64,000 nt of DNA from Bordetella parapertussis (GTDB lineage Bacteria; Pseudomonadota; Gammaproteobacteria; Burkholderiales; Casimicrobiaceae), in NCBI GenBank assembly GCA_943331295.2, contig CALQLA020000003.1, forward strand, positions 1-64,000, given 5' to 3'. Shown one piece after another: positions 9,137 to 58,179 of the stretch (the first letter of the stretch is position 1; each line of letters opens with the position of its first letter). The translations under genes and the position numbers were made by a program. Below the pieces are notes generated by a model. It was not told where the DNA came from and ran no database searches. It worked only from the letters and a program-made list of their open reading frames with translations.

Positions 9137-10114
9137 TCAGCATTCGTCGTCCAGCATCCGCCGGTACGACGCCCCGATGGCGGCCGGGTCGAGCCCCGCG
9201 GTGATGAACACGAGGCAGGTGCCGTCGGCCGGCGGCGCCGCGAGCTCGAGGTGCACCGGCGGATGGAAGAAGCGCTTCACGCCGTGGATGCCGATCCAGG
9301 TCCCGCGCTCGGCGTCGAACAGCACGCCCTTGGTGCGCAGGATCCGGTCGCCATGGACGTGGATCAACCGCGTCAGCCACACCGCGAACTGCGGCCACGA
9401 CGGCGGCGCGACGTCGCGGATCGCGATGCTCGCGACGTCATGGGCGACGCCGCGCCGCGCGTACGGCAGCACCGGCACCCGCGCCGCGCCGGAAGGGTCG
9501 CCGGCCGTCGCCTCGTGGCGGCCGAGCCAGGCCGCGAACTCCGGCCCGCCGGCATCGAAGATGTCGGCCAACGGGTTGAACCGCGCCAGCGCGTCGCGCG
9601 TCGCGTCCGCGGCGGCGGGGCCGGCAAGGTCGCGCTTGGTGAGCACGAGCGCGTCGGCGGCCGTGATCTGCGCGCAGGCCTCGGCCCGCGCCCATGTCGC
9701 CGGATCGTCGGTCGCGCCGACCGTGCAGAGAACCGCGCCGGCGCGGAACCGCGCGCGCAGCGTGAAGTCGGCGCGCAACGTCTGCAGGATCGGCAGCGGC
9801 TCCGAGATGCCCGAGGTTTCGATGACGATGCGCCGGAACGGCGCCGGGCCTGCGCCAGCGGCAAGGAGACCCATCAGCGTCGACGGCAGGTCGCTCCGCA
9901 GCGTGCAGCACACGCAGCCGCTCTTGAGCACGACCGTTTCCTCGGACCGGCCCTGCACGAACAGCTGGTCGAGCCCGACGTCGCCGAACTCGTTGACGAC
10001 CACCGCCGTCTCCGCGCCGAAGCCGGCGGCGAGCGCCGCGTTGAGGAGCGTCGTCTTGCCGCTGCCCAGGAACCCGGTGAGGACGTGGACCGGGATGAGC
10101 GCGGGCGCGCTCAC
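9137..10114 (-). CDS. COG0523 (CobW-like) GTP-dependent metallochaperone, copy 1
   Basis: G3E-family GTPase of 325 residues. Visible: Walker A GFLGSGKTTLL (14-24), the metal-binding CxCC motif GCVCC (Cys67, Cys69, Cys70), Walker B IETSGISEP, base-recognition TKRD, and a C-terminal CobW domain. COG0523 proteins deliver zinc or other metals to client enzymes under GTP control. It sits 25 bp after a metal-dependent deacetylase-fold hydrolase gene in the same direction, a plausible client. A paralogue is at 27266-28264. Confidence 0.92.
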   Translation of the reverse strand: MSAPALIPVHVLTGFLGSGKTTLLNAALAAGFGAETAVVVNEFGDVGLDQLFVQGRSEETVVLKSGCVCCTLRSDLPSTLMGLLAAGAGPAPFRRIVIETSGISEPLPILQTLRADFTLRARFRAGAVLCTVGATDDPATWARAEACAQITAADALVLTKRDLAGPAAADATRDALARFNPLADIFDAGGPEFAAWLGRHEATAGDPSGAARVPVLPYARRGVAHDVASIAIRDVAPPSWPQFAVWLTRLIHVHGDRILRTKGVLFDAERGTWIGIHGVKRFFHPPVHLELAAPPADGTCLVFITAGLDPAAIGASYRRMLDDEC

Positions 10115-10139
10115 CTCCCGCGCCCGCGACGATGCCGCG

Positions 10140-11054
10140 TCAGGACTTCGGCGCCGGGAACCGCGCGATCCAGTGCTTCGCGATGTCGATGCCGCGCGCG
10201 AACCACACGCCGTCGTGCTTCTGCACGTGGTCGATGAAGCGGCGCAGGTGGCCGATCCGCCCCGGGCGGCCGACGAGCCGGTTGTGCAGGCCGATCTGCA
10301 TCATCCGCGGCCGGTCCGCGCCCTCGGCGTACAGCTCGTCGAACGAGTCCTTCAGGTACTCGTAGAACGGCGTGCCGTAGTTGAAGCCGGGCGTGGTCGA
10401 GAACCGGTGGTCGTTGACGTCGGCCGTGTACGGCACGACGAGCAGCTGCCGCCCCGACTCCTTGATCCAGTACGGCACCTCGTCGGCGTACGAATCCTGC
10501 GTGTACAGGAAGCCGCCCTCCTCGGCGACGAGGCGGACCGTGTTCTCGCTGCGCCGGCCGATGAAGCTGCCGAGCGGGCGCTGGCCCGTCAACCGCACGT
10601 GGATGTCGATCGCGCGCCGGATGTAGTCGCGTTCGATCGCCTCGGGCAGCCCGTGGTAGTCGATCCAGCGGTAGCCGTGGCTCGAGAGCTCCCAGCCCGC
10701 TTCCACCATCGCGGCAACGGCGTCCGGGTTCCTCTCCAGCGCCATCGCGACGGCGTTGACGGTGATCGGGATCTTGCGCTCGGTGAACAGCTTGTGCAGG
10801 CGCCAGAAACCGACGCGGCTGCCGTACTCGTACTGCGACTCGACCGGCTTGTAGCGGTCGCCGACGCGCGGCATCGCGAAACCGAATTCCGACAGCAGCG
10901 ATTCCGACGCCGGATCGCCGTGGAGGACGTTGAGCTCCGCGCCCTCCTCGTGGTTGATCACGAACTGCACCGCGATGCGCGCGCCGCCCGGCCACTTCGG
11001 GTCCGGCCAGTTGCGGCCGTAGCCGATCATGTCGCGCGGATAATCGTTGCCCAT
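10140..11054 (-). CDS. Polysaccharide-deacetylase-fold hydrolase, PuuE (allantoinase)-like
   Basis: NodB-fold metal-dependent hydrolase of 304 residues. The N-terminus MGNDYPRDMIGYGRNWPDP and VINHEEGAEL closely resemble PuuE-type allantoinases/urate-catabolism proteins, which open cyclic amides rather than deacetylate sugars. The metal-site region SSHGYRWIDYHGLP is present. Start ATG 11054 is favoured by the conserved N-terminus; an upstream in-frame extension is not conserved-looking. It is the first gene of the minus-strand operon that includes COG0523 and TRAP system 1. Allantoin or another cyclic amide is a reasonable but unproven substrate. Confidence 0.88.
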   Translation of the reverse strand: MGNDYPRDMIGYGRNWPDPKWPGGARIAVQFVINHEEGAELNVLHGDPASESLLSEFGFAMPRVGDRYKPVESQYEYGSRVGFWRLHKLFTERKIPITVNAVAMALERNPDAVAAMVEAGWELSSHGYRWIDYHGLPEAIERDYIRRAIDIHVRLTGQRPLGSFIGRRSENTVRLVAEEGGFLYTQDSYADEVPYWIKESGRQLLVVPYTADVNDHRFSTTPGFNYGTPFYEYLKDSFDELYAEGADRPRMMQIGLHNRLVGRPGRIGHLRRFIDHVQKHDGVWFARGIDIAKHWIARFPAPKS

Positions 11055-31684: not shown

Positions 31685-32671
31685 GTGAGCGCGCAGCGCG
31701 AAGGTGGTGCGGCGAGCCGGGGACTGCAGCAGCCGGTCTCGTGGCGCGTCTGGGCGATGGCCGCCGCATGCGTCGCGGCGACGCTGGTGCTGCCCTTCCT
31801 GGTCGGCAACTACTGGCTGCGCGTGTGGACGACGGTGCTGATGTTCGTCGCCGTCGCGCAGGGGCTCAACATCATCGTCGGCTTCGCCGGCTACCACTCG
31901 TTCGGCAATGCGGCGTTCTTCGGCGTCGGCGCGTACGTCACCGGCGTGCTGATGGTCTGGGGCATGCCGTTCGTCGGCACGCTGCCGATCGCGGCGGGCG
32001 TCAGCGCGCTGATCGCGATGCTTGTCGGCTACCCGCTGCTGCGCCTGCGCGGGCACTACTTCGCGATCGCCACCGTGGCGCTCAACATCGCGTTCGCCGA
32101 ACTCATCATCAACCTGGGCGGCGTCACCGGCGGTGCCCAGGGCCTGGCCCTGCCGATGAGCAGCCTGCCGCCGGACGCGCTGTACCGGATGATCTACTTC
32201 CTGATGGCGGGAAGCGCCATCGGGGCGACGGCGCTGGTGGCGTGGCTCGCGCGCAGCCGCTTCGGCTTCGCGCTGCGGGCGCTGAAGGACAGCGACGCCG
32301 GTGCCCAGGCGATGGGCATCAACACGACCCGCACGCGGGTGCTCGCCTGGATGCTGAGCGCCGCCGTGACCGGCCTGGTCGGCGGCATCTGGTCGTACTG
32401 GCTCACCTTCATCGAAGTCGGCAGCGCGTTCGACATCGGCATCTCGGTCAAGGGCTACATCATGATGCTGATCGGCGGCATGGGCACGGTGGCCGGGCCG
32501 GTGCTGGGCGCGCTGTTCTTCGAGCTGTTCGCCACGCTGATCTGGAGCCATTTCGGCGCCATCCACAACCTGGTGCTCGGCGTGCTGGTCTGCGCGGTGA
32601 TCCTGGTGATCCCGCAGGGGCTCCTGGCCGCGGTGCGCTCCCGCCGCTGGCGCGGGAAGGGGCCGCGATGA
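31625..32671 (+). CDS. Branched-chain-type ABC permease, LivM type
   Basis: Inner-membrane permease of up to 348 residues with about nine helices; FAGYHSFGNAAFFGVGAY and LRLRGHYFAIATVALN are LivM hallmarks. The first helix begins near residue 38. The preceding N-terminal stretch is not LivM-like: it is encoded by a copy of a 60-bp repeat (RPEGEYRSAQHEGSP). Translation can start at ATG 31625, which overlaps the LivH stop, or at GTG 31685 at the repeat end, which has GAAGG 7 bp upstream. The two starts differ by 20 residues. Confidence 0.93.
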   Translation: MSRKGRPEGEYRSAQHEGSPVSAQREGGAASRGLQQPVSWRVWAMAAACVAATLVLPFLVGNYWLRVWTTVLMFVAVAQGLNIIVGFAGYHSFGNAAFFGVGAYVTGVLMVWGMPFVGTLPIAAGVSALIAMLVGYPLLRLRGHYFAIATVALNIAFAELIINLGGVTGGAQGLALPMSSLPPDALYRMIYFLMAGSAIGATALVAWLARSRFGFALRALKDSDAGAQAMGINTTRTRVLAWMLSAAVTGLVGGIWSYWLTFIEVGSAFDIGISVKGYIMMLIGGMGTVAGPVLGALFFELFATLIWSHFGAIHNLVLGVLVCAVILVIPQGLLAAVRSRRWRGKGPR

Positions 32672-32907
32672 GCCCGACGGGCCGCCCCGAGGGCGAATAC
32701 CGGAGTGCGCAGCACGAAGGCAGTCCAGTGAGCCCGACGGGCCGCCCCGAGGGCGAATACCGGAGTGCGCAGCACGAAGGCAGTCCAGTGAGCCCGACGG
32801 GCCGCCCCGAGGGCGAATACCGGAGCGCGCAGCACGAAGGCAGTCCAGTGAGCCCGACGGGCCGCCCCGAGGGCGAATACCGGAGTGCGCAGCGCGAAGG
32901 CAGTCCA
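32668..32907 (+). repeat. 60-bp start-codon repeat, tandem array of four (copies 2-5, at LivG start)
   Basis: Four contiguous 60-bp units at 32668, 32728, 32788 and 32848, nearly identical: unit 3 has one T-to-C change (GGAGCGCG) and unit 4 has CAGCGC for CAGCAC. Each unit begins with ATG/GTG AGC CCG and ends GAAGGCAGTCCA, so each carries a Shine-Dalgarno-like GAAGG 7 bp before the next start. The start after unit 4 is mutated to GCG. All units keep one reading frame open into LivG. Confidence 0.95.
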
Positions 32908-33675
32908 GCGAGCGGCGAGGTCGCGCTGAAGCTGACCGGCATCACCGTGCGCTTCGGCGGCGTCGTCGCGCTCCACGACGTCGGGTTCGAGGTCCGCGCG
33001 GGCGAGACGGTCGGCCTGATCGGCCCGAACGGCGCGGGCAAGACGACGCTGCTCAACGTGATCTCGCGCTTCATCCCCGCTTCCGGCGGTCGCGTCGAGC
33101 TCTTCGGCGAGGACGTGAGCCGCGTGCCCGCCTACGGCCTGCCGCGGCGCGGCGTCGCGCGCACGTTCCAGATCGTGCAGCCGTTCGCGAACCTCACGGT
33201 GCGCCAGAACGTCGCCGTCGCCGCGATGTTCGCGGGCGCGGGACGCAGCGAGAGCGAGGCGGCGGCGCAGGCCGACGCCGCGATCGAGCGCACCAGCCTC
33301 GGCGCGAAGGCCGACATGCTGCCGGCGCACATCACGCTCGCGGACAGGAAGCGCCTCGAGCTCGCCCGCGCGCTGGCGATGCAGCCGCGCGTGCTGCTGC
33401 TGGACGAGGTGATGGCTGGGTTGAACCACGTCGAGATCGACCGCATCATCGCGCTGATCCGGGACATCAAGGCGCAGGGGACCACCGTCGTCGTCGTCGA
33501 GCACGTGATGAAGGTCATCGCGGCGATCGCCGACCGGATCGTCGTGCTCAAGTTCGGCGAGAAGATCGCCGACGACACGCCCGACCGCGTGTTCGACGAT
33601 CCGGCCGTCGTGAGCGCCTATCTCGGCGACCGCTTCACCCGGCGGCGCGCCGCGGCGCGGGCCGGCACGCCATGA
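32668..33675 (+). CDS. Branched-chain-type ABC ATP-binding protein, LivG type, with repeat-encoded N-terminus
   Basis: ATPase of up to 335 residues. The conserved part begins at LKLTGITVRFGGVVAL (about residue 88): Walker A GPNGAGKTTLLN, Walker B VLLLDEVMAGLN, switch His VVVEHVMK. The signature is ITLADRKRLELARAL, so LSGGQ is replaced, as in some LivG relatives. Residues 1-80 are four copies of a 20-residue repeat. Possible starts are ATG 32668 (overlapping the LivM stop) or GTG 32728, 32788 and 32848. The codon after the last repeat is GCG, so at least one repeat peptide should be translated. Confidence 0.93.
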   Translation: MSPTGRPEGEYRSAQHEGSPVSPTGRPEGEYRSAQHEGSPVSPTGRPEGEYRSAQHEGSPVSPTGRPEGEYRSAQREGSPASGEVALKLTGITVRFGGVVALHDVGFEVRAGETVGLIGPNGAGKTTLLNVISRFIPASGGRVELFGEDVSRVPAYGLPRRGVARTFQIVQPFANLTVRQNVAVAAMFAGAGRSESEAAAQADAAIERTSLGAKADMLPAHITLADRKRLELARALAMQPRVLLLDEVMAGLNHVEIDRIIALIRDIKAQGTTVVVVEHVMKVIAAIADRIVVLKFGEKIADDTPDRVFDDPAVVSAYLGDRFTRRRAAARAGTP

Positions 33676-40124: not shown

Positions 40125-43100
40125 TCAAGGCGTCGGGCAACTCGTCCCGACGCCGGTGAATGCCGCCGCCGTCACGGGAGGATCCGTGTAGGCGTTCGTC
40201 GTGAACGAACCGGCGTTGTTGCCGGCGAGGAAGGACTCGACATTGGCCAGGACGGCACCTCCCACGTAAGTCGGAAGATTGAACGTATGCCCCGCTGCCG
40301 CGCCGCTGGCGCCGACGATCACACCGAGGTTGCCGGCGAGGGTCAGCGTGTTCTTCTCGCCGGCCGTTGCGCCGCCGATTTTGGCGCAGACGTTGACCGT
40401 GTCCGACGACGACGGCGACCCGTTGGAGATCAAGATGCCGGCGAACCAGGAAGGCGACACGGCCAGAGGTGTATCCAGCAGGTTTCCGGTAATGGTGAAA
40501 TTCGCCGCATAGCTGCCGCCGGTGTTGTCGGCCCAGATGTGCGCGTTGCCGTGGATCTGGTGGATCTGGTTGTCGGCGATCGTGAAGCCCATCGTGCCGG
40601 CGCCGGCGGCGGAGACGTAGATCCCGTTGCCGCTCTTCGATCCGGAATCCGTCACGCCCGCGACGCCGATCGTGTTGTTGGTGAAGCGACCAGTGAGCGA
40701 CGTGCCGGCGCTGGCCTTCAACAGCGTCACCGCGCTGCCGTGGGCGTCGCGCATCGTGTTCCCGTCCACGTTGAACGTCATCACGCCCTGGCTGGCCAGG
40801 GTCAGCCCGCCGCCGCCGATGGTGTTGCCCGGATGACTGTTCGACAGCGCGTTGTTCCTCATGACCACGTCCATGGTGCTGCCGGTCTGGCCGGTGAAGT
40901 TGACGAGGTCGCCGGGCGCGCCGGTGAAGGTGTTGGGTTCTCCGGAGAGTGTTCCACCGACGGTGGAATTGATCGTCGCCGTGCCGCGATTCTCGACCGC
41001 CAGCGACTGGTTTCCGTGCCCGTTGTTGAGGTTCAACCCGAACGTGTTGCCTTTGAAGGTGAGCGTGGTGACATTGCCCGCGCCGTTCGCCGTATTGGTG
41101 ATCGAAAGGTTGCGCCACTCGCCGCCGCTGATGACGTTGTTCGTGAAGGTACCCGACGAGGAGATTCCGTTGTTGGTCGTGTCGCCGAAGTAGATGCTTC
41201 CCTCGCCGGCATTGTTCGGGTCCGCGTTGTAGTTGGTTCCGTTGGTGCCGCTGACCGTCGAGTACTCCAGCGTGAACCCGTTCACCGCATTGCCGCGGAT
41301 GCCGTAGTTGGTGTTGGTCCCGTTGATCGTCATCCGCCGCAGCACGACGTTCGACGTGCTGTTGAGGTAGATCCCGATTCCGGTGGTGGTGCTGGTGTCC
41401 GCGCCGGACTTGTTGGCGATCGTGCCGCCGGTGCTGTTGCCACCCACGCTGGTGTTGGCGCCATCGCCCGTCACCGTCAGCCCGCCGCTCGCTCCCGTCG
41501 TATCCAGGATGATGCCGGTCGCCGAGCCGCCGGTCGCCGAGAGGCTCTGGAACGTCAGATTGGCCGCGCCGATCGTGGTGTTGGCGACGTTGAGCGCCGT
41601 TCCGGTGGTCGAAGCGACGGTATTGGCCGCACCCTGCACGGTGACCGTGCCGCCGCCGGCGGCGTTGAAGCCGATGCCGGAGGTCGTCGCGATGGCGAGG
41701 CCGCCACCGGTGAAGTTGATCGTCGCCCCGGTATTGGTGGCCAGGTTCACGCCGTTGCCCGTGCCCGTGCTGATCTTCTTGTTCGCGCCGCTGAAGTTGA
41801 GCGTCCCCCCGCTGTTGCCCGACGCCGAAATGCCCTTCGCCGCGCCGCCCGGGTTGATGTCGCCCGACAAGGCCACCGTCCCGCCGGTCTTGTTGGCGAT
41901 GTTGACGGCCAGCGTGGCGGCGTTGGTGATCGTCCCGGTGTAGGTGACGTTCGCGTTCTGGCCGTCGATCTTCAACGCGTCGCCGCTGGCGCCGGACAGC
42001 GCGCCGCCGTTGATCACCAGCGTGCCCGTCACATTGGTGAGCAGGATGTTGTTGGTCCCGCCGGTCGAGGTCGCGCTGTCGAGCGTCGTCGTGCTGCCGG
42101 TGCCGCTTAAGCCGATCGCGGCGGCGAGCAGGGCCGACACGCTCGCTTCGTTGATGACGGCCCCCGTGACCGCGCCGCCGCTCAAGCCGGTGGCGGAACG
42201 GGTCGAGATGTCGAGGCCGCGCACCGTGCTGTTGGTGTTGACCGTCACCGTGTTCTGCACCGTCGGCCGGTCCGCGCCGGTGGCCGGCCGCGCGGCGAGG
42301 TTCCCTTGCGCCGGCACCCCGATGCCGAACAGCGTGTCGAAGGCCGTGCTGACACCCTGCCCGATCAGCCAGCCACCCGAATTCAGCGGCACCGCCGCCG
42401 CGTGGCTCGCGGCGTCGCCGATGAATATCCGGGCATTCGTCGCGACGCCGATGTTGCCCACCGCCGTCGCCAGCGTGCACTCGTTGCCGAGCGTGCAGTT
42501 GCCCGTCCCGACCGCGGACTGCTTGACGAAATAGATGACGGGTCCGGCGACGTTGAAGCTGACTGTCGCGGCCGCGCTGTCGACGCCCGGCGGCGGGTTG
42601 CCGCTGTCGGTGACGTGGTAGGTGAAGGACACCGTGGTGCCGGCGGCCGACGGCGGCGGCGTGAAGGTGAAGCTGCCGTCGGCGTTGATCGTCAGCAGGC
42701 AGCCGCTGCACAGGCTGTCAGGCGTCGTGTTGATCGTGATCGCCGTGCCTTCGGGGTCGGTTCCGCCCAGCTTGCCGGCCGGATAGGTGATCGGAATCCC
42801 TGCCTGCGCCGGCAGGTTGGTGAAGCCGTTCGCGGTCGGCGGGTCGTTGACGGCCGTCACGTTGATCGTGCTGGTCGCCGTGTTGCTGAGGTTGTTGACC
42901 GCGCCGCCGTCATCGACCCGCCAGGTGACGGTGCGGGCGAGCGTGCTCGGATTGTCGGATGCGTTGTTGTACTTCACGCTGCGCAGTGCCGCCTGGTAGT
43001 TGGCGACGGAACTGCTGCCGGAAAGGGTCAGCAGGCAGGTCGCGGCGGTGTAGACGCCGCTGATGCCGTTCTGGGTGGTGAACGAAAGGACGTCCTGCGG

Positions 43101-46100
43101 ATTCGCGCAGTTGCCGGTGATCTGCGCCGTTGCGCCCGCCAAATTCGCGCTGTCGACATCGCTGATGGTGATCGTCGTGTCGATCGCCGTGGCCGCCTGG
43201 TTCTCGGTATAGCTGAGCGTCGCGCCGGCGGTCAGCACCGGCGCGTCGTTCACCGCGGTGACGTTGATCGTGCTGGTCACCGGCGCGCTGGGCGCCGTGC
43301 CGTCGTTGCCGATCCAGGTGACCGTGCGCGCCAGCGTGCCCGGATTCTCGGACGTATTGTTGTATTTCACGCTGCGCAGCGCCGCCTGCCAGTTGGCCAG
43401 CGTGGCGCTGCCGGTCAGCGTCATCAGGCACCCTGCCGCGGTGTATACGCCGCTGATGCCGTTCTGGCTGGTGAAGGAGAGCACGTCCTGCGGATTCGCG
43501 CAGTTGCCCGTGATCTGGGCCGTGGCGCTCGCGAGACTGGCACTGTCCGCGTCGTTCACGGTCACCGTGGCGTCGATCACGCTGGCCGGATCGTTCTCGG
43601 TGTAGTTGAGCGTGCCGCCGGCGACGAGCACCGGCGGATCGTTGGTCGCGGCGATCGTGATCGTCCGCGTGACGATGTTGCTCAGGTTGCTGGACGGCGC
43701 GCCATCATTGGCCTGGAAGCTCGCGGTGCGCGATGCCGTGGACGGGTTGTCGCTGGTGTTGCTGTACCTGACGTCTCTCAGCGCCGCCTGGTAGTTGGCG
43801 ACCGAACTGCTACCGGAGAGCGTCATCAGGCAGGTCGCGGCGGTGTAGGCGCCGCTGATGCCGTTCTGGGTGGTGAACGAAAGCACGTCCTCGGCGCTGG
43901 CGCAGTTGGCCGTCAGCTGGACCGTCGCGCCGGCGAGGTTCGGGCTTTCGGTGTCGGCGACGGTGAGCGTGGCGGTGATCGCGATCGCCGCGCCGTTCTC
44001 GGTGTAGGGCAGCGCCGCGCCTTCGATGTTCGCGAGCACCGGCGGGGTGTTCGTCCGGACGTTGATCGTCCGCGTTTGCGTGTTGCTCAGGTTGTTGACG
44101 CCGGCGCCGGCGCTGACCCGGAACGTGGCGACGCGGGCGGACGTGCTCGTGGCGTCGTTGGTGTTGCTGTACTTGACGTCGCGCAGCGCCGCCTGGTAGT
44201 TGGCGACCGACGACGTGCCGGTCAACGTCATCGTGCAGGTGGCCGCCGTGTAGACCCCGCTGATCCCGTTCTGGCTGCCGAAGCTCAGCACGTCGTCGGC
44301 GCTCGTGCAATTGGTCGTGAGCTGCACCGTGGCGCCCGCCAGCGTGGCGCTGTCGGCGTCGTTGGCGGTAAGGGTCGCGGTGATCGGCGCGGCCGCCGCG
44401 TTGACGGTGTAGCCGAGCGCCGCGGGCTCGATGTTGGCGAGCACCGGTGCGGTGTTGACCGCAGTCACCGTCACCAGCGCGTGCGCGACCGGCGCATTGT
44501 CGAAAATGCCGTCGTTGACGGTGACCGTGATGTCGCGGGGGGTCGTGCCCGGGTTCTGCGAACTGTTGTTGTAGGTGAGCGTGCGCAGCAGCGCCTGGTA
44601 GTCGGCCAGCGGGGCCACGCGGGCGATGGCCAGCGTGCCCGTGGCCGGCGTGTACGCGACATCGGCAAGCAGGATGGCGCCGCTGCAACCGGGGCCCGCG
44701 TCCGGACAGGTCACGCCGATGCTTTCGGCCGCCCCGTCCTGCAGGTTGGTGATCACCGCCGTGGCGCTCGCCAGCGTGGCGCTGTCGCTGTCGGTCACCG
44801 TCAGTTCGTCGGGACTCACCGTCTGCACGATCGGCACGGCGCCGGCGGCTTCGGTGAAGCTGGCGGCGAAATCGATGCCGGCCGCGTCGCCGTCGAGATC
44901 GACCACCGGCCGCGCATCGGTGACGCTGATCGTCACCGTCGCCGTGCTGTTGCCGCTCGCGTTGAGCAGGGTGTAGGCAAACGTATCGTCACCGGCAAAG
45001 CTCGCCGGTGGCGTGTAGGCAAAGCCGCCATCGGCGCCGACCGAGACGCTGCCGGCCTGCGCGGTGGCATGCGCGCAGGGGAAGGGCGGACAGGCGGTTC
45101 CGCTCACGTTCGTGATCGCCGCGGGGGGGAAGCCCAGGGTGTCGTTCGCCAGCACGCCGGGCGGCAGGCCCGCGGCCGTGATCGTCAGCGGGGCGTCGTG
45201 GACCGTGGTGTAGGCGCTGTCGGCGACGGCCGTGGGCGCCTGGTTGACCGTCTGCGACAGCGCCCCGCCATTGCTGCCGTTGAAGCCGGCGTCGCCGCCG
45301 TAGGTGGTGTTGATGCTGGCATGCACGCCGGGGGCAAGCGCGGAGGTCGTGAACTGCGCGACGCCGGCGACCAGCGTGCCGCTGCCGAGCGGCGTTATCC
45401 CGTCGAGGAAATCGACGCTGCCGGTGGGCACGCCGGCCCCCGGCACACTTGGTGCCACCGTGGCGGTGAAGGTGATCGCCTGGCCGGCCAGCGCCGGGTT
45501 GTTGTTCGAGACAAGCCCCGTCGTCGTATTCGCCTTGTTCACCGCCTGCGTCGGCAGCGACCCGGTGCTGGTGCCGAAATCGGCGTCGCCGCTGTAGATC
45601 GCGGTGACCGCGTGCGAGCCGGCGCTGAGGGAGCCTGTGCTGAGCGTGGCGACGCCGGCCGCCAGCGCTTGCGGCGCGCCGAGGTCGCCGGCACCGTCCT
45701 TGAACTGCACCGTCCCGGTCGGCGTGCCGGCCCCCGGGGCGGTCACCGTCACCGTGGCGGTGAACGTCGTGCTCTGCCCGAATACGGCGGGATTGACGGA
45801 GGAGGCGAGTCCCGTGGCGGTCGCCGCCCGATTCACCGTCTGCGTCGGCAACGCGCCGGTGCTGGCGGCGAAGCTCGCATCGCCGCTGTATTCCGCGCTG
45901 ATTCCGTGCGCGGCCGGACCCAAGGTCGAGGTGCTGACTTGGGCGATGCCGCTGCCGTTCAGCGCGATCGGCGCCCCGAGCGGACTGCTGCCATCCTTGA
46001 ACTGCACCGTCCCGGTGGGCGTGCCGGATCCCGGCGGGATCGCCGTCACCGTGGCGGTGAACGTCACCGACTGTCCGAATACGGAAGGATTGACCGTCGA

Positions 46101-47771
46101 CGTCACCGCCGTGCCGGTTCCGACGAGGTTGACGGTCTGCGTCGGCAGCGAACCGCTGCTCACGGTGAAGTTCGCGTCGCCCAGGTAATTCACGCTGATC
46201 GGATGCGCACCCTGCGCCAGCGCCGAGGTGCCGAGCGTGGCCACCCCGCTGCCGTTCAGCGCGACGGGGCCGCCGAGGGGATTGGCGCCGTCCATGAACT
46301 GCACGTTGCCGCTCGGGACGCCGCTGCCGGGCGGGGCGGCCGTCACCGTCGCGGTGAAGGTCACCGACTGCCCGATCACCGACGGATTGGCGCCGGAGGT
46401 CGCCACCGTCGTGCTCGGCGCCTGGTTGATGGTGAGCGCGAAGGACTGCGTCACCGGCGCGCCGACGCCATTGGCCGCGCTGAGCGTGCAGTTCTTCACG
46501 CCGACGCTGCCCAGCGCCGCGGACCCGGCCAGCGTCGCGGTGCCGTTGCCGTTGTCGGTGAAGCTGAGGCCGCCCGGCAGCGCAGGCGCGCATCCGGTCA
46601 GCGTCAGCGTGGCGTTCGGGAAGCCGGTGCTGGTGAAGGTGAAGGTCCCCGCCGTACCGACGATGAACGCGGTGTTGTTGGCGCTGGTGATCGCCGGCGC
46701 CTGGTTGACGGTCAGCGTGAAATTCTGGCTGGCGGCGGGCAACACCCCGTTCGACGCGTTGAGCGTCAGCGGATAACTCCCGCCGGTGCCGGCGTTCGGC
46801 GTGCCGGTCAGGCCGGCCGTGCCCTGGCCGGCGGTGTAGACGAAGCTCACGCCGCCAGGCAGCGTCCCGCTCTGCGTGATGTCGTTGACCGGGGGGACGC
46901 CGAAGGTGGTGACGGCGAAGCTGCCCGCCACGCCGGTGGTGAAGGTCGTCGCGCTGGCGCTGGTGAAGCTCGCGGGCGTGACGGTCTTCACGTCGGCGCG
47001 CACGAAGACTCTCGAATTCTCCAGCCTGGCGTAGACCGCAGCCAGGTCGGCCCCGGCCGGTGCGTCGCCGGTGGCGTCGGTGGCCAGCGGCGGCACCCCG
47101 GCCCAATCGCCGATCAGCCCGTCGAGGACGATCGCGGCCCAGGCGGTTCCCGCCACCATCGCGGCCATTACCCCGACGAGCAGCAGCGTCGATACCTGAT
47201 GCTCGCGCAAGCGGCGCAGCGCCAGCCAGGCGAGCGCGAAAGCGAGCAGCAGCAGTGCGCCGTGCGCCAGCGTCGGAATGACCGGGAACGGGCCCAGATC
47301 GAAGATGATCTCCGGGCCGCCGCGCAGGCCGTTGGTGGTGACGAGCGCGTCGCTGGCCGGCGGATTCAGGTTGGGGTCGGTGTAGACGAACCCCATCCGG
47401 TACTGGCCGTACGGCGTGCCTACCGGAAAATACGTCTCCAGCACGTCGAAGCCGAAGGTGCCGTTGCCGATGCCCACCGGCCAGCCGCCGTTGCTGATCG
47501 TCGCGGGCGGGCCGAACGCGCCGCCGATGCAGTTCTGCCGCGTCACGCCGCTCACCATCGGCGGATAGACGCCGGTGTTGACCGTGGTGGTGATCGTGAA
47601 CTCGACGCCCGGGAAGGGCCCGGCCGGCGTGGCGACCGTGCATCCGGTGGCGCTGTTGTCGTCCAGGTCGACCAGGATGTCGAAAGTGGACGCGAAGAGC
47701 GCCTGGCTCAAGAAGAGCGCAGCGACTGCCAGCCAGCGCGCGGGGAACGATTGCCTACCAGGTAAAGCCAT
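40125..47771 (-). CDS. Giant Ig-repeat/beta-helix surface protein with internal IPTL sorting motif (midcut-by-XrtH type)
   Basis: A 2,548-residue exported protein. Signal peptide about 1-28. An N-terminal beta domain ends at IPTLAHGALLLLAFALAWLALRRL (165-188), an IPTL-CTERM-like exosortase sorting signal placed mid-protein; a second helix (193-213) ends TAWAA, then LDGLIGDWAGVPPLATDATGD. Next come two putative-Ig repeats, about five Ig-like repeats each with VTFTATVT and GDA/YLGDAN motifs, a GVLANDT-type cadherin-like domain, five repeats with DADSA...ALRDVKYSN, and a right-handed beta-helix (about 1,750-2,548). Start ATG 47771 is chosen for the signal peptide. The layout matches what I recall as the midcut-by-XrtH family; the XrtH exosortase itself is not in this window. 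Confidence 0.9.
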   Translation of the reverse strand: MALPGRQSFPARWLAVAALFLSQALFASTFDILVDLDDNSATGCTVATPAGPFPGVEFTITTTVNTGVYPPMVSGVTRQNCIGGAFGPPATISNGGWPVGIGNGTFGFDVLETYFPVGTPYGQYRMGFVYTDPNLNPPASDALVTTNGLRGGPEIIFDLGPFPVIPTLAHGALLLLAFALAWLALRRLREHQVSTLLLVGVMAAMVAGTAWAAIVLDGLIGDWAGVPPLATDATGDAPAGADLAAVYARLENSRVFVRADVKTVTPASFTSASATTFTTGVAGSFAVTTFGVPPVNDITQSGTLPGGVSFVYTAGQGTAGLTGTPNAGTGGSYPLTLNASNGVLPAASQNFTLTVNQAPAITSANNTAFIVGTAGTFTFTSTGFPNATLTLTGCAPALPGGLSFTDNGNGTATLAGSAALGSVGVKNCTLSAANGVGAPVTQSFALTINQAPSTTVATSGANPSVIGQSVTFTATVTAAPPGSGVPSGNVQFMDGANPLGGPVALNGSGVATLGTSALAQGAHPISVNYLGDANFTVSSGSLPTQTVNLVGTGTAVTSTVNPSVFGQSVTFTATVTAIPPGSGTPTGTVQFKDGSSPLGAPIALNGSGIAQVSTSTLGPAAHGISAEYSGDASFAASTGALPTQTVNRAATATGLASSVNPAVFGQSTTFTATVTVTAPGAGTPTGTVQFKDGAGDLGAPQALAAGVATLSTGSLSAGSHAVTAIYSGDADFGTSTGSLPTQAVNKANTTTGLVSNNNPALAGQAITFTATVAPSVPGAGVPTGSVDFLDGITPLGSGTLVAGVAQFTTSALAPGVHASINTTYGGDAGFNGSNGGALSQTVNQAPTAVADSAYTTVHDAPLTITAAGLPPGVLANDTLGFPPAAITNVSGTACPPFPCAHATAQAGSVSVGADGGFAYTPPASFAGDDTFAYTLLNASGNSTATVTISVTDARPVVDLDGDAAGIDFAASFTEAAGAVPIVQTVSPDELTVTDSDSATLASATAVITNLQDGAAESIGVTCPDAGPGCSGAILLADVAYTPATGTLAIARVAPLADYQALLRTLTYNNSSQNPGTTPRDITVTVNDGIFDNAPVAHALVTVTAVNTAPVLANIEPAALGYTVNAAAAPITATLTANDADSATLAGATVQLTTNCTSADDVLSFGSQNGISGVYTAATCTMTLTGTSSVANYQAALRDVKYSNTNDATSTSARVATFRVSAGAGVNNLSNTQTRTINVRTNTPPVLANIEGAALPYTENGAAIAITATLTVADTESPNLAGATVQLTANCASAEDVLSFTTQNGISGAYTAATCLMTLSGSSSVANYQAALRDVRYSNTSDNPSTASRTASFQANDGAPSSNLSNIVTRTITIAATNDPPVLVAGGTLNYTENDPASVIDATVTVNDADSASLASATAQITGNCANPQDVLSFTSQNGISGVYTAAGCLMTLTGSATLANWQAALRSVKYNNTSENPGTLARTVTWIGNDGTAPSAPVTSTINVTAVNDAPVLTAGATLSYTENQAATAIDTTITISDVDSANLAGATAQITGNCANPQDVLSFTTQNGISGVYTAATCLLTLSGSSSVANYQAALRSVKYNNASDNPSTLARTVTWRVDDGGAVNNLSNTATSTINVTAVNDPPTANGFTNLPAQAGIPITYPAGKLGGTDPEGTAITINTTPDSLCSGCLLTINADGSFTFTPPPSAAGTTVSFTYHVTDSGNPPPGVDSAAATVSFNVAGPVIYFVKQSAVGTGNCTLGNECTLATAVGNIGVATNARIFIGDAASHAAAVPLNSGGWLIGQGVSTAFDTLFGIGVPAQGNLAARPATGADRPTVQNTVTVNTNSTVRGLDISTRSATGLSGGAVTGAVINEASVSALLAAAIGLSGTGSTTTLDSATSTGGTNNILLTNVTGTLVINGGALSGASGDALKIDGQNANVTYTGTITNAATLAVNIANKTGGTVALSGDINPGGAAKGISASGNSGGTLNFSGANKKISTGTGNGVNLATNTGATINFTGGGLAIATTSGIGFNAAGGGTVTVQGAANTVASTTGTALNVANTTIGAANLTFQSLSATGGSATGIILDTTGASGGLTVTGDGANTSVGGNSTGGTIANKSGADTSTTTGIGIYLNSTSNVVLRRMTINGTNTNYGIRGNAVNGFTLEYSTVSGTNGTNYNADPNNAGEGSIYFGDTTNNGISSSGTFTNNVISGGEWRNLSITNTANGAGNVTTLTFKGNTFGLNLNNGHGNQSLAVENRGTATINSTVGGTLSGEPNTFTGAPGDLVNFTGQTGSTMDVVMRNNALSNSHPGNTIGGGGLTLASQGVMTFNVDGNTMRDAHGSAVTLLKASAGTSLTGRFTNNTIGVAGVTDSGSKSGNGIYVSAAGAGTMGFTIADNQIHQIHGNAHIWADNTGGSYAANFTITGNLLDTPLAVSPSWFAGILISNGSPSSSDTVNVCAKIGGATAGEKNTLTLAGNLGVIVGASGAAAGHTFNLPTYVGGAVLANVESFLAGNNAGSFTTNAYTDPPVTAAAFTGVGTSCPTP

Positions 47772-48095
47772 GAATGCGGTCCGCCGGAAGCGAAGTCTCA
47801 CGCCCCCGCGTTGTTTCAGAGGATGAGAGGATATTTCGCGTGCGCCGTTTGCACAAGCGCCGCCCGGGGTCGCGTCCCGGGCTTTCCGGACCCAGGCGCG
47901 GGCCGGGAGCGTTTTCCGTACACCGTGCAGCACTTCCCGGCAAACGGTCGAATCGGCGCCGCGCCTGATGACGGTGACTTCCTGCCGGCCGTGGCGGTAG
48001 CGAAGCCGGAAGCCGTACCTGTTCACAGGCGCCTCCATGGGCGGCATCGCCTGCGCGCGTCCGGGGCCCCGTCCCTCGTCGGCGGTGGGCCCCTG
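47772..48095. other. Intergenic region upstream of giant surface protein
   Basis: No gene is supported here. It carries the promoter side of the giant gene. On the minus strand, 47861-47898 reads with GGAAAGCCCGGGACGCGACC, which loosely recalls the core of a cyclic-di-GMP-I riboswitch but lacks the GGCAAAC and CTAA elements. No clear terminator seen. Confidence 0.5.
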
Positions 48096-52581: not shown

Positions 52582-53532
52582 TCACTCGGTGAACAGCGAG
52601 CTGACCGACTCCTCGTTCGACACCCGGATCATCGTCTCGGCCATCAGCTGCGCGCACGAGAGCTGCCGGATGCGCGGGCAGGCCTGCGCCTCGGCCGTCA
52701 GCGGGATCGTGTCGGTGACGACGATCTCGTCCAGCTCGGAGGCGCCGATCCGCGCCACGGCGCCGCCGGAGAGCACCGGGTGCGTGCAGTAGGCGACGAC
52801 CTTCTTCGCGCCGTGCTCCTTCAACGCGGCCGCCGCCTTGCACAGCGTGTTCGCGGTATCGACGATGTCGTCCATGATCACGCAGGTGCGGCCGTCGACG
52901 TCGCCGATGATGTTCATCACCTCGGAGTCGTTGGCGCGCGGGCGACGCTTGTCGATGATCGCGAGCTCGGAGTCGAGCCGCTTGGCGATGGCGCGGGCGC
53001 GCACCACGCCGCCGACGTCCGGCGACACGACGAGGAGGTCGTCGTAATTCTGCTTCCACACGTCGCCCAGCAGGATCGGCGTCGCGTAGATGTTGTCGAC
53101 CGGGATGTTGAAGAAGCCCTGGATCTGGTCGGCGTGCAGGTCCATCGTCATCACGCGGTTGACGCCGACGGTCTCCAGCATGTCGGCGACGACCTTCGCG
53201 CTGATCGGCACGCGCGCGGAACGCGGGCGCCGGTCCTGCCGCGCGTAGCCCAGGTAGGGGATCGCCGCGGTGATCCGCGCCGCCGACGCGCGCTTCAGCG
53301 CATCGGTCATCACCATGATCTCCATCAGCGTGTCGTTGGTCGGCGCGCAGGTGGACTGCAGGATGAACACGTCGCGACCGCGCACGTTCTCGAGCAGCTC
53401 GACCATCACCTCGCCGTCGGAAAAGCGGCCGACGATGCAGCGGCCGAGGCCGGTGTGCAGGTGCTTGCAGACGGCTTCCGCAAGCTTGGGGTTGGCGTTG
53501 CCGGTGAAGATTCGCATACGCTCAAAGGCCAT
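52582..53532 (-). CDS. prs: Ribose-phosphate pyrophosphokinase
   Basis: Makes PRPP from ribose 5-phosphate and ATP for nucleotide, His, Trp and NAD synthesis. 316 residues, normal. Motifs: [35 protein letters not shown], the metal site [11 protein letters not shown], and the PRPP loop [13 protein letters not shown]. It lies in the ispE/tRNA-Gln/prs/rplY order, but here about 3 kb carrying a plus-strand protease gene separates it from the tRNA. Confidence 0.98.
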
Positions 53533-53845
53533 GGCACCCTGCCGGCAAAGCGGGCTCGCTGTGCGTCAACACGCGTCGCGCCCGTGGATTGGAGTGGCCG
53601 GGGAGGCGGCCACGCGCCTGTGTGCGCAGGCACCGCGTTCGCACCGGCCGCGCCGCCCGAAACGCCGGACCGCCGTGCCGCCAGCGCGCGTGTGCCCCCG
53701 CCTTCCCATGTACATGCAATGATCCAAGCGCATTGTCCCACAGAAAATTGCGCACTGCGGCAGGCGCCCCCGTCATCCTCGCAGGCACAATCCTCGCAGG
53801 CGCAATTGCGGACAGGCCCCGTTTTTGCTAGCTTGAAAGCCGGAA

Positions 53846-53901: not shown

Positions 53902-53940
53902 GGCAGAACGGTCAGCGCCTTCCGCGAGCAGCGGAGCGCC

Positions 53941-54031
53941 GGCCCTGAAAAAAGGCAAACCCGTCGGAAACGCGGGGACGCAAAGTTACCGGTCTAATGG
54001 GCACGTCGCCCGATGACAACGGGACCGCCAG
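53941..54031 (+). promoter_or_regulatory. Cyclic-di-GMP-I (GEMM) riboswitch
   Basis: The conserved aptamer core is clear: GGCAAACC, a stem capped by a GAAA tetraloop, GGGACGCAAAG (53976-53985 region), then ACCGGTCTAA, and a second stem opening with ATGGGC and closing with GACCGCCA, which would hold the tetraloop receptor. The order and spacing match the GEMM-I family. It is located 140 bp before the metalloprotease start on the same strand, so that gene is probably controlled by cyclic di-GMP. I cannot tell from sequence whether it is an on or off switch. Confidence 0.88.
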
Positions 54032-54171
54032 GCAAGCCGGCTCGGACTGATCGCGCCTTCCGGTTCCGCCCTCTTCCCTGGCAAGCACGCCGCGACGTTC
54101 GCGGCAATGTTTGCATGCGCATGTCGCGCCTGCCGGCATTCCGCGGCAGTGGAGTCAGAGGAGAGGCATCG

Positions 54172-56367
54172 ATGAACGCGAAGATCGCAACACACTCCAT
54201 CGGCGACGCAGGCGTGCCTGCGCCGACGGCTCGCGGATCCCGGGCCGGCCCGGCGCGCGGTTGGCGCCGCAGCCTGCTGGCCGTGGCGACCGCGCTGCTG
54301 GTCGGCGCCGCCGCAGCACAATCTGCCGCGCCGCTGCCGATGCTGCTGGCATCGCCGACCGCGTCCGACCTGCGCCCGGGAGCGGCGGCGCCCGCGGCGG
54401 ACCGCGCGGTGGCGCGGCAGCGCGCGGTGGCCGTCCGCTACGAGTACCTCGACCCGCAGTCGGGCCGGACCCCGGCCGAGGTCGGCATCGAACTCTTCGA
54501 CGGCCAGGTGGTCACGCTCGAGCGCGGCCGGATCGACCAGCGCGGTCCCGGCAACTACACCTGGCACGGCCGGGTGCGGGGCTACGATCGCGGCGAGGCG
54601 GTGCTGACCGTGGTCGACGGGCACATCGCGGGAACCATCGTCCTCGTCGACAGCGCGGTGCGGTCCGCCGAAACCTACCAGCTGCAGTCGGGACCCGACG
54701 GCACGCCGTCGCTGCGCCGGCTCGACCCGAGCGGATTCCCGCCCGACCACCCGCCCGGCCACGAGAGCCTGGCGAGCCCTCGCGGGCACGCCGGCGAGCG
54801 TGCCGCCGCGCTGTCCGGCGCGGCGCCTGCCGTGGCCACCGCGGCGGACTCGGCGGCCAGCATTGACGTGCTGATCGTCTACAGCAACCAGACCGCCGCG
54901 GCCGCCGGCGCCGGGATCGGGTCCCAGGTCCAGCAGGCCGTCGACCGGGCGAACCTCGCGTACGCGAACAGCGGCATCACGACGCGGCTGCGGCTCGTGC
55001 ACTACCGGCAGGTCGCCTATGACGAGAGCAACGACTTCTCGACCGACCTCAACCGGCTCACCACCGGCGGCGACGGGTTCATGGACGACGTGCCGACGCT
55101 GCGCAACACCTACGGCGCGGACCTCGTCAGCCTGTTCGTCGAGAACGGCCAGTACTGCGGCCTGGGCTGGCTCGGCCCGAACGCGAGCTACGGCTTCACC
55201 GTGGTCAATCGCGGCTGCGCCGGCGGCAACCTGAGCTTCGCGCACGAGCTCGGCCACAACATGGGCGCGCGGCACGACCCCTACGTCGACTCGAAGTCGA
55301 CGCCCTACGCCTACGGCCACGGGTACGCGTATCCGGCCGGCGCATGGCGCACCGTGATGGCGTACAACGACGCCTGCGTGAATGCGGGCACCAGCTGCGC
55401 GCGGATCGCCTATTTTTCCACCCCGCTGCTCTCCTACGGCAGCCCGGCGACGCCGCTCGGCACCGCCGCCGTCTCCGACAACGCGCGGCTCATCAATCTC
55501 AACGCCTACACGGTCGCCAACTTCCGCGCCGCGGTCGGCGGCAGCTGCACCTACGCGCTGGCGCCGTCCGGCGCCGCGGCCGCCGCCGCGGGGGGCAGCG
55601 GCTCGTTCGCGGTGACTGCAGGCGCCGGCTGCGCGTGGAATGCGTTTAGCAACGCCGCCTGGCTGACCGTCGGCGCCGGGTCCGGCACCAGCGGCAGCGG
55701 CACGCTGCTGTATTCGGCGGCCGCGAACGCCGGCCTCGCGCGAAGCGGCAGCATCCTCGTCGGCGACCAGACGTTCACGGTGACGCAGGCGGCCGCCTGC
55801 ACCTATGCGTTGAGCCCCGGCAGCGCGAGCGTGGCCGCCGGCGGCGGCACCGGCAGCGTGGCGCTGACCGCGGGCGCCGCCTGCGCGTGGACGGCCGCCA
55901 GCAGCGCCACCTGGCTGACGGTCACGTCGCCGGGCAGCGGCAGCGGCAGCGCGACGGTGAGCTACGCCGCCGCCGCCAATGCCGGCGCGCAGCGCAGCGC
56001 CAACCTCAACGTGGGCGGCGCGACCTTCGTCGTGACGCAGGCCGCGCCGGCGACCGCGGCATTGTCCGCGACGGCGATCAGCTTCTCCCGCCAGACGGTC
56101 GGCACGACGAGCGCCGTCAAGTCGGTGACGCTGAAGAACAGCGGCGGCGGCACGTTGCAGGTCAGCGCACTCAATGCCGGCGGCGCGAATCCGGGCGATT
56201 TCATCCGCAGCGGCACCTGCACGGCGAGCACCGCGCTCGCGGCCGGCCAGAGCTGCACCGTGGCGTATGCGTTCAAGCCGACCGCGAAGAACAGCCGCAC
56301 GGCGAGCCTCGCGATCGTCACCGCCTCGGGGACGGTGAACCTCGCGCTGAGCGGCACGGGCAAGTAG
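54172..56367 (+). CDS. Secreted reprolysin-like zinc metalloprotease with BACON and ASH-type domains
   Basis: A 731-residue exported protein. Signal-like helix about 35-52 (SLLAVATALLVGAAAAQSA), propeptide, then the catalytic domain with SFAHELGHNMGARHD (HExxHxxGxxH, about 355) and Met-turn VMAYND. Next are two BACON-like repeats (CTYAL...TVTQA, about 455-545 and 545-625), and a C-terminal ASH/choice-of-anchor-D beta domain (SFSRQTVGTTSAVKSVTLKN). Start ATG 54172 is preceded by GAGGAGAGG. Downstream of a cyclic-di-GMP riboswitch; role may be release or processing of surface proteins or glycans (BACON suggests carbohydrate or mucin binding). Confidence 0.92.
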   Translation: MNAKIATHSIGDAGVPAPTARGSRAGPARGWRRSLLAVATALLVGAAAAQSAAPLPMLLASPTASDLRPGAAAPAADRAVARQRAVAVRYEYLDPQSGRTPAEVGIELFDGQVVTLERGRIDQRGPGNYTWHGRVRGYDRGEAVLTVVDGHIAGTIVLVDSAVRSAETYQLQSGPDGTPSLRRLDPSGFPPDHPPGHESLASPRGHAGERAAALSGAAPAVATAADSAASIDVLIVYSNQTAAAAGAGIGSQVQQAVDRANLAYANSGITTRLRLVHYRQVAYDESNDFSTDLNRLTTGGDGFMDDVPTLRNTYGADLVSLFVENGQYCGLGWLGPNASYGFTVVNRGCAGGNLSFAHELGHNMGARHDPYVDSKSTPYAYGHGYAYPAGAWRTVMAYNDACVNAGTSCARIAYFSTPLLSYGSPATPLGTAAVSDNARLINLNAYTVANFRAAVGGSCTYALAPSGAAAAAAGGSGSFAVTAGAGCAWNAFSNAAWLTVGAGSGTSGSGTLLYSAAANAGLARSGSILVGDQTFTVTQAAACTYALSPGSASVAAGGGTGSVALTAGAACAWTAASSATWLTVTSPGSGSGSATVSYAAAANAGAQRSANLNVGGATFVVTQAAPATAALSATAISFSRQTVGTTSAVKSVTLKNSGGGTLQVSALNAGGANPGDFIRSGTCTASTALAAGQSCTVAYAFKPTAKNSRTASLAIVTASGTVNLALSGTGK

Positions 56368-56560: not shown

Positions 56561-56635
56561 TGGCTGGGGAGGTAGGGATCGAACCTACGAATGCCGGAAT
56601 CAAAATCCGGTGCCTTACCACTTGGCGACTCCCCA
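56561..56635 (-). tRNA. tRNA-Gln (TTG anticodon)
   Basis: On the minus strand: TGGGGAGTCGCCAAGTGGTA begins the gene (acceptor and D arm), CCGGATTTTGATTCCGG forms the anticodon arm (anticodon TTG), GTAGGTTCGATCCCTAC the T arm, and CCTCCCCAGCCA the 3' acceptor with encoded CCA. 75 bases. It follows ispE, the standard position in beta- and gammaproteobacteria. Confidence 0.97.
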
Positions 56636-56704
56636 ACGGAGCAAAGCTTCGCACCCTCCGACAGCGGTGCGCGGTTGCCTGACGGCGACAACCCTTTCCA
56701 AAAC

Positions 56705-57589
56705 TCATGCGAAGGCCGCCAGGGGATGGCGGTCGAGCAGCCGGGCGACAAAGCCTTGCATGCCCGGCGCCTCGGCCCTTGCGGCGGCGAGCGCCGCGCG
56801 GGCTTCGGAATGGTTCGCGAACAGCGCGTACACGCAAGCGCCCGACCCTGTCATCCGTGCCGCCGGCGACCGCTTGCCGAGGAGCGCGAGCGCCGCAGCA
56901 ATGACCGGAAATCGCGCGACCGCCACTGCCTGCAGGTCGTTCCGGCCATAACCCTCGGAAAAGACGCTTATTTTCGCTGACGGCGTGTCGCGTGTCAATT
57001 CCGGCGCTGCGAAGACCGTCGCGGTCGGCACGATCGCCGCCGGCGCCAGCACGCAAGCCCACAGGCGCGGCAGCGATACCGGGACGAGATCCTCGCCGAC
57101 GCCGCGGGCCAGCGCCGGCGCGCCGAAGACGAAGAACGGCACGTCGGCGCCGAGCCCCAGTCCGATCTTCATCAGGTCGGCGCGCGGCAATCCGAGCGCC
57201 CACAGGCGGTTCAAGCCCAGCAGCACGGAAGCCGCGTCGGAACTGCCGCCGCCCAGCCCGCCGCCCTGCGGAATCCGCTTGACGAGCCCGATCGTCACGC
57301 CGTGGCGGCACAGCGTCGCCTGCTGCAGCGCGCGCGCCGCGCGCACGGCGAGGTCGGCCTCGGGTGGCACGCCGGGGAGATCGGTCGCGCGCTCGATCGC
57401 GCCGTCGTCGCGGCGGACCAGCGTCAGCGTATCGTGGAAGTCGAGCGCGACGAACAGCGACTCCAGCGTGTGATAGCCGTCGGCGCGGCGACCGGTCACG
57501 TGCAGGAAGAGGTTGAGCTTCGCCGGCGCCGGTACCACCAGCGACGGCGGCGCGGCGGCGGCGGAAGCGCTCGGCGCAAGCGCAGTCAT
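56705..57589 (-). CDS. ispE: 4-diphosphocytidyl-2-C-methyl-D-erythritol kinase
   Basis: GHMP kinase of the MEP isoprenoid pathway, 294 residues. PAPAKLNLFLHVTGRRADGYH at the N-terminus, the ATP-binding PQGGGLGGGSSDAAS, and the C-terminal MTGSGACVYALF. Its ATG overlaps the lolB stop by 4 bp. The first 15 residues are Ala-rich and precede the conserved region, so the true start might be slightly downstream. Confidence 0.96.
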   Translation of the reverse strand: MTALAPSASAAAAPPSLVVPAPAKLNLFLHVTGRRADGYHTLESLFVALDFHDTLTLVRRDDGAIERATDLPGVPPEADLAVRAARALQQATLCRHGVTIGLVKRIPQGGGLGGGSSDAASVLLGLNRLWALGLPRADLMKIGLGLGADVPFFVFGAPALARGVGEDLVPVSLPRLWACVLAPAAIVPTATVFAAPELTRDTPSAKISVFSEGYGRNDLQAVAVARFPVIAAALALLGKRSPAARMTGSGACVYALFANHSEARAALAAARAEAPGMQGFVARLLDRHPLAAFA

Positions 57590-58179
57590 TGCCACGTGTC
57601 CACGACGATGCGAATCTCGAACTCGGGGTAGGACACGCGCAGCCGCGACGGCCGGAGCGCGGCGGCGTCCGGGTAGTCGTAGACGATCTCCCAGCCGTCC
57701 TGGCGCAGGACGCCGGCCCGGCCGTCGCGGTCGGGCTCGATCGTGTACGGCGCGCCGGGGCGCGGCATCGCGCGGAGCCACGCGGCGAGGCCCGCCACAG
57801 GCAGCGGAAAGCCCAGCACCCGCGCGGTCAGCGTCGTCCAGTCGGCGGCGCTGTCCTGCCGGCCGTCGGACGTCCGCACCTCGACCCGCTGCGCCGACGC
57901 ATCGCCCGTGAGCTCGGCCAGCGTCTGCCCGAGCGGCGACATCACGACGAGTTCGTCGCGCGGCGGCGCGTGCCGCCAGCGGAACTGCACGGCGACCGCG
58001 TCGGCGCCGTGCCGCGCGGAGAGGCGGCCTCCGGCGGTGAACGGAGCCTCGACGAGCGCGGCATCGAATCCCTGCTGCGGCGCGACCGCAGGCTGCGTCG
58101 CGCATGACGCAAGCACCAGCGTCGCGACGGCAGCCGTCGCGGCGGCGAGCCGGCGCGCGCCGGCGGGCAGGGTCCGCAT
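57586..58179 (-). CDS. lolB: Outer-membrane lipoprotein LolB
   Basis: Receives lipoproteins from LolA and inserts them in the outer membrane. 197 residues, with a lipobox (TLVLASC, Cys26). LolB-type features: FTAGGRLSARHGADAVAVQFRW, LSPLGQTLAEL-like MSPLGQTLAELTG, and a C-terminal PEFEIRIVVDTW. Located directly before ispE, its conserved position. Confidence 0.94.
   Translation of the reverse strand: MRTLPAGARRLAAATAAVATLVLASCATQPAVAPQQGFDAALVEAPFTAGGRLSARHGADAVAVQFRWRHAPPRDELVVMSPLGQTLAELTGDASAQRVEVRTSDGRQDSAADWTTLTARVLGFPLPVAGLAAWLRAMPRPGAPYTIEPDRDGRAGVLRQDGWEIVYDYPDAAALRPSRLRVSYPEFEIRIVVDTWQ

Follow-up and report, generated by a model that had tools for sequence, protein, structure and literature searches.

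In the window (the whole 64,000-nucleotide stretch of DNA that was analyzed), a protease gene on the + strand is flanked by genes of the − strand, prs at 52582-53532 and tRNA-Gln/ispE at 56564-58105. (The identity of the tRNA-Gln was read from its TTG anticodon.) The open reading frame begins with an ATG at 54172 and ends at 56367, and its start codon, preceded by a Shine-Dalgarno (SD) sequence, is situated 139 nt 3' of a c-di-GMP-I (GEMM-I) riboswitch aptamer. The features at and around this locus are:

40125-48047, − strand: open reading frame of 2640 aa with Big/cadherin repeats, from domain matches (the "giant sorted adhesin" of the initial annotation)
53806-53834, + strand: weak promoter candidates from script scans, TTGCGG-17-TAGCTT (sigma70-like) and an overlapping AGGCCCCGTTTTTGCT at 53814 (GG-N10-GC, sigma54-like)
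53938-54041, + strand: P1 stem CCUG (53944-53947)/CAGG (54029-54032) with the extension GCCGGC (53938-53943)/GCCGGC (54036-54041), from the sequence and free-fold prediction
53944-54032, + strand: c-di-GMP-I (GEMM-I) aptamer, from cmscan with RF01051, its positions compared in 100 + 28 aptamers
54033-54171, + strand: expression platform of 139 nt without intrinsic terminator, from folding and a terminator scan
54157-54166, + strand: Shine-Dalgarno sequence AGAGGAGAGG, from the sequence
54172-56367, + strand: secreted metzincin of 731 aa (P0001) with a hydrophobic N-terminal segment, LLAVATALLVGAAAAQ, from translation and domain matches
54859-55371, + strand: reprolysin-like (M12B-type) catalytic domain with HELGHNMGARHD (from 55243) and the Met-turn VMAY, from PF13688/PF13582/PF13583
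55546-56046, + strand: two BACON repeats, PF13004 in two stretches (E 1.1e-14), the limits of the first repeat being read from the sequence
56032-56328, + strand: choice-of-anchor-D (ASH/HYDIN-like Ig) domain, NF012200 with 64.4 bits, residues 621-719

The HExxHxxGxxH/D zinc motif and the Met-turn of M12B/reprolysin-like metzincins are both intact in the protease, and the catalytic domain (Reprolysin_5, PF13688, 67.6 bits) was recovered again in a second genome-wide scan. The coordinates and the domains given in the initial annotation (reprolysin-like, two BACON, ASH-type) were correct by these Pfam and NCBIfam matches. A phmmer search of the protease against the PDB gave no match, and its AlphaFold model is poor (pLDDT 55).

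The aptamer matches RF01051 at 53944-54032 (+) with 64.5 bits (E 2.4e-10; cmscan, Rfam), against a gathering cut-off of 35 bits, and the match spans the whole model (1-87). The earlier description of the site as a clear GEMM-I aptamer is confirmed by this score, and the motifs named in it (GGCAAACC, the GAAA loop, GGGACGCAAAG and CTAA) are all found in the window sequence. The residues that contact the ligand in Vc2, G20, A47 and C92 (PMC4744006), are kept at 53954, 53982 and 54028, as is C44, at 53979; in relatives, AGUCUG/CGGACU stands at the place of the window's P1 extension. What that description overlooked is an A at 54019, the equivalent of the near-universal G83. G occupies this position in 126 of the 128 compared aptamers (99 of 99 others from the order and 27 of 28 from the class), and A is found in one of the 127 others. 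C44 and G83 form the P2-P3 interhelical pair, which holds both helices parallel (PMC3764141) and has been described as universally conserved (PMC4744006, PMC3764141). With C 53979 against A 54019, this Watson-Crick pair is absent in the window copy, and it is less certain for that reason that this copy works. Judged by descent and by its whole-model score, the window aptamer is a divergent RF01051 sequence, one that may be weakened or decaying, and the A might also be a single-base assembly error. As a natural variant, the window copy lends itself to testing the C44-G83 pair.

No intrinsic terminator was found between the aptamer and the start codon. By folding, CCCUCUUCC (54069-54077) can pair with the SD, and CCUGGC (54077-54082) with the 3' strand of P1. 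The ensemble energies are close (−110.4 kcal/mol with P1 forced vs −109.1 kcal/mol with the 3' strand of P1 limited to downstream partners), and the modeled leader RNA is plausibly poised between alternative pairings. The SD of the window is paired in both ensembles, P1 forced and P1 broken, and RNAalifold of five homologous platforms yielded little covariation (−0.52 kcal/mol). Reading the sign of the switch from folding was dropped, because in most leaders the SD is equally paired whether P1 is forced or broken. As for the promoter, TATAAT-like boxes lie 14-24 nt 5' of the aptamer in most related leaders. This conserved promoter, which adjoins the aptamer in the orthologues, is absent in the window, where a sigma70 consensus scan upstream of the aptamer found no site and the only candidates are the weak ones ~110 nt 5' of it.

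Is the association between aptamer and protease fortuitous? In a family sample of 64 genomes, 15 GEMM-I elements were found in 13 genomes. (The genomes compared are mostly draft assemblies.) Only two close orthologues of the protease were found in the family, in G057 and G042 (53-55% identity), and a GEMM-I is located directly upstream of both, 104 and 159 nt before the start codon. None was found upstream of the more distant family homologues, or upstream of the window genome's own paralogue, on contig C2; one search of genome contigs returned only distant homologues. (The G042 orthologue has a frameshift near residue 639, in L061 at about 10060-10345, with the C-terminal anchor-D domain in another frame.) For the three GEMM-bearing proteases, a single gain on the tree suffices (support 60/93). 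The link between aptamer and protease is not a matter of chance, being kept in all three close orthologues, the window included.

Secreted proteases stand behind nine of the 13 assignable GEMM-I leaders in the family. Five are S8 subtilases with Big_7 repeats (G054, G055, G056, G059 and G063), three are reprolysin-like metzincins (the window, G042 and G057), and one is an M6/M11-like metallopeptidase behind a second GEMM-I of G057; the remaining assignable leaders comprise three before pilin-like genes and one before an unassigned protein. (Two leaders at contig ends were left out of the 13, one with a Big_7 fragment, in G026, and one with nothing behind it, in G060.) A scan of nine of these genomes, ~32 Mb, gave 29 S8 and 14 reprolysin-like matches, 43 together, and such proteases would by this estimate make up ~0.1-0.2% of genes, assuming one gene per kilobase. 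In the same nine genomes, proteases are found behind nine of ten assignable GEMM-I, a count that overstates the number of independent events, since the family leaders are related by descent. The window genome itself has two GEMM-I elements by genome search, the window copy and one upstream of a type IV pilin-like gene.

In a wider survey, GEMM-I was found in 149 of 399 sampled genomes of the order, from which 80 loci, chosen by score and not at random, were read. The commonest genes behind GEMM-I in this set encode DUF1631-type proteins (36 of 80 loci, L106-L176, e.g. L113:708-3002), one of which was called by Pfam and the rest by clustering. The same 80 loci include seven S8 subtilases, four S53 sedolisin-like proteases (profile vs kumamolisin, E 5e-26) and two weakly metzincin-like proteins, and in the rest of the class S8 proteases stand behind three of 25 assigned loci. 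With S8, S53 and metzincin-like enzymes distributed over family, order and class, GEMM-I before secreted proteases is thus a recurrent theme across folds. A literature search of partial coverage found no paper joining "c-di-GMP riboswitch" with subtilisin, or DUF1631 with a riboswitch. (In L097 and L103, from two genomes of one genus, three GEMM-I aptamers lie within ~2 kb before a secreted protein with "KWHPGHYYT".)

At one site, the protease appears to have been exchanged under its leader. The contigs of G063 (L053; the genome is only 66% complete) and G042 (L061) align on both sides of the leader-protease site, with identities of 79% in an ABC-transporter-like region, 77% in a LysM/BON gene and 74% in a DUF1295/ICMT gene. 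The leader is 82% identical over promoter box and aptamer, its homology, 264 nt long in L053, runs from the TATAAT to a point ~15 nt short of the start codon, and for the portion 3' of the aptamer the similarity has a z of 26 vs shuffles. From the leader to the DUF1295 gene, G063 has an S8 subtilase and G042 a metzincin, which share no DNA similarity, and homology resumes ~200 nt past the S8 stop codon. On these alignments, a swap of proteases behind a conserved leader is a better reading than chimeric assembly, because a chimera needs two breakpoints and because the pairing of metzincin and GEMM-I recurs in G057 and in the window. The orthologous proteases are found in differing neighborhoods: prs/tRNA/ispE in the window, dnaK in G057 and LysM/BON in G042.

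The explanation that we favor for the whole, with a probability of about 0.6, is that riboswitch control sets the level of the metzincin and that the protease behind the conserved leader is interchangeable. A class I c-di-GMP riboswitch in the 5' leader of the mRNA would set the amount of secreted metzincin. On binding to the window copy, c-di-GMP would stabilize P1 of the aptamer, and the state of P1 would then decide the pairing of the 139-nt platform. Since the leader lacks an intrinsic terminator, the most plausible control point would be whether ribosomes can reach the SD. Export of the metzincin would probably be by the type II route; the 7 GGDEF matches and 3 secretins of the window genome mean that it could, in principle, both synthesize c-di-GMP and export by type II secretion. 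The conserved unit would consist of promoter, aptamer and platform, with either an S8 subtilase or a metzincin gene behind it. There is about an even chance that this represents a fold-independent "protease slot", in which the leader is kept by descent at its site, unrelated proteases are swapped behind it, and what is selected is the presence of a secreted protease under c-di-GMP control, not the particular enzyme. The conserved pairing, the recurrence with unrelated proteases and the homology of the leaders support the initial proposal that a c-di-GMP-I riboswitch controls a secreted protease in cis; the proposal loses some force for this particular copy, with G83 substituted and no conserved promoter adjoining the aptamer. 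Riboswitch-controlled secreted proteases were already known, and the new element is the exchange. The recurrence in Gram-negative lineages with unrelated protease folds, together with one swap, leads to a testable statement on what c-di-GMP regulation selects, and natural leader pairs of the L053/L061 type could be used for reporter work.

Could the window aptamer instead be a low-affinity relic of a decaying riboswitch, with the protease under other control? The rare A at the G83 position, the loss of the TATAAT box that adjoins the orthologous aptamers and a score among the lower ones of the family all point that way. On the other hand, the window aptamer retains its three ligand contacts as well as C44, the GAAA loop and a P1 stem whose changes are compensatory, and 64.5 bits is well over the cut-off; the one deviating base, A54019, is known from a single genome of the species and might be an assembly error. 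Decay thus seems unlikely, without being negligible. The chance that the aptamer senses 3',3'-cGAMP instead of c-di-GMP is far smaller and close to nil: GEMM-I variants with an A at position 20 (G20A) bind cGAMP (PMC6274999), but the window has a G there (53954), as in the c-di-GMP type, which argues for c-di-GMP. (Elsewhere, position 20, a ligand contact, is a C in the GEMM-I aptamers of L159 and L172 and an A in that of L169; the gene behind L169 has a homologue, L153, whose product combines ankyrin repeats with a nucleotide cyclase domain.)

In which direction would the favored riboswitch act? Validated class I c-di-GMP switches with known sign are mostly OFF, and V. cholerae has one of each sign. 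The V. cholerae switches Vc1 (gbpA) and Vc2 resemble the window in being GEMM-I elements of a Gram-negative host whose long leaders work by means other than transcription termination, but their targets are not proteases and they keep the C44-G83 pair. The closest precedent is ZmpI/PPEP-1 of C. difficile (CD2830, Cdi-1-12), likewise a secreted zinc metalloprotease led by a class I c-di-GMP aptamer and repressed through it. That switch belongs to a Gram-positive host and brings about transcription termination when c-di-GMP is high; in the window, by contrast, no terminator was found, the metzincin carries BACON domains, and serine proteases occur behind related leaders. Given the OFF majority and this nearest functional parallel, we lean toward an OFF switch, with less protease at high c-di-GMP, at odds close to level. 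An ON switch, by which c-di-GMP would raise expression and the protease would be made in the surface or biofilm state like Mep72 of P. aeruginosa, goes against the same majority and is somewhat doubtful. Among NCBIfam families, Mep72 comes closest to the catalytic region (114.5 bits, well under the cut-off), and it is biofilm-specific and T2SS-exported (PMC4334185, whose abstract mentions no riboswitch). Like the window protease, it is a secreted metzincin with C-terminal binding domains, but the accessory domains differ. (Membership in the Mep72 family was rejected, the NF052434 equivalog cut-off being 645 bits and the match covering the catalytic part only.) The pilin-like gene behind the genome's other GEMM-I also favors ON, since C. 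difficile pilins are favored at high c-di-GMP (PMC6366702), but the switch in that parallel is of class II. The functional class I switches of C. difficile are OFF, the zmpI one included (PMC6200980, PMC6366702), and sign is not to be extrapolated between species (PMC6366702).

What would the protease act on? PPEP-1 acts on sortase-anchored adhesins, and the initial annotation, which called the 2640-aa repeat protein sorted, had suggested it as a target. Apart from this analogy, proximity speaks for specific cleavage of that protein (40125-48047) upon a change of lifestyle. However, the protein has no model match to a sorting signal and no recognizable sorting tail at its C-terminus, and the housekeeping genes ychF and prs lie between the two genes. 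No such gene was seen beside the orthologous proteases, whose neighbors are unrelated (LysM/BON, glycosyltransferase, dnaK), and no anchored substrate was found in the gene neighborhood of the protease. A swap of proteases of differing fold also speaks against one dedicated site. Neither "sorted" nor the role of target is upheld, and such cleavage is highly improbable. An IPTL-CTERM-like segment (VIPTLAHGALLLLAFALAWLALRR) occurs near residue 257 of the repeat protein, in the N-terminal region and not at the C-terminus. Elsewhere in the window, a tandem array at 32669-32913 consists of 4.1 copies of a 60-bp unit with 97% matches, and two further contigs of the genome, C2 and C17, carry copies similar to this unit.
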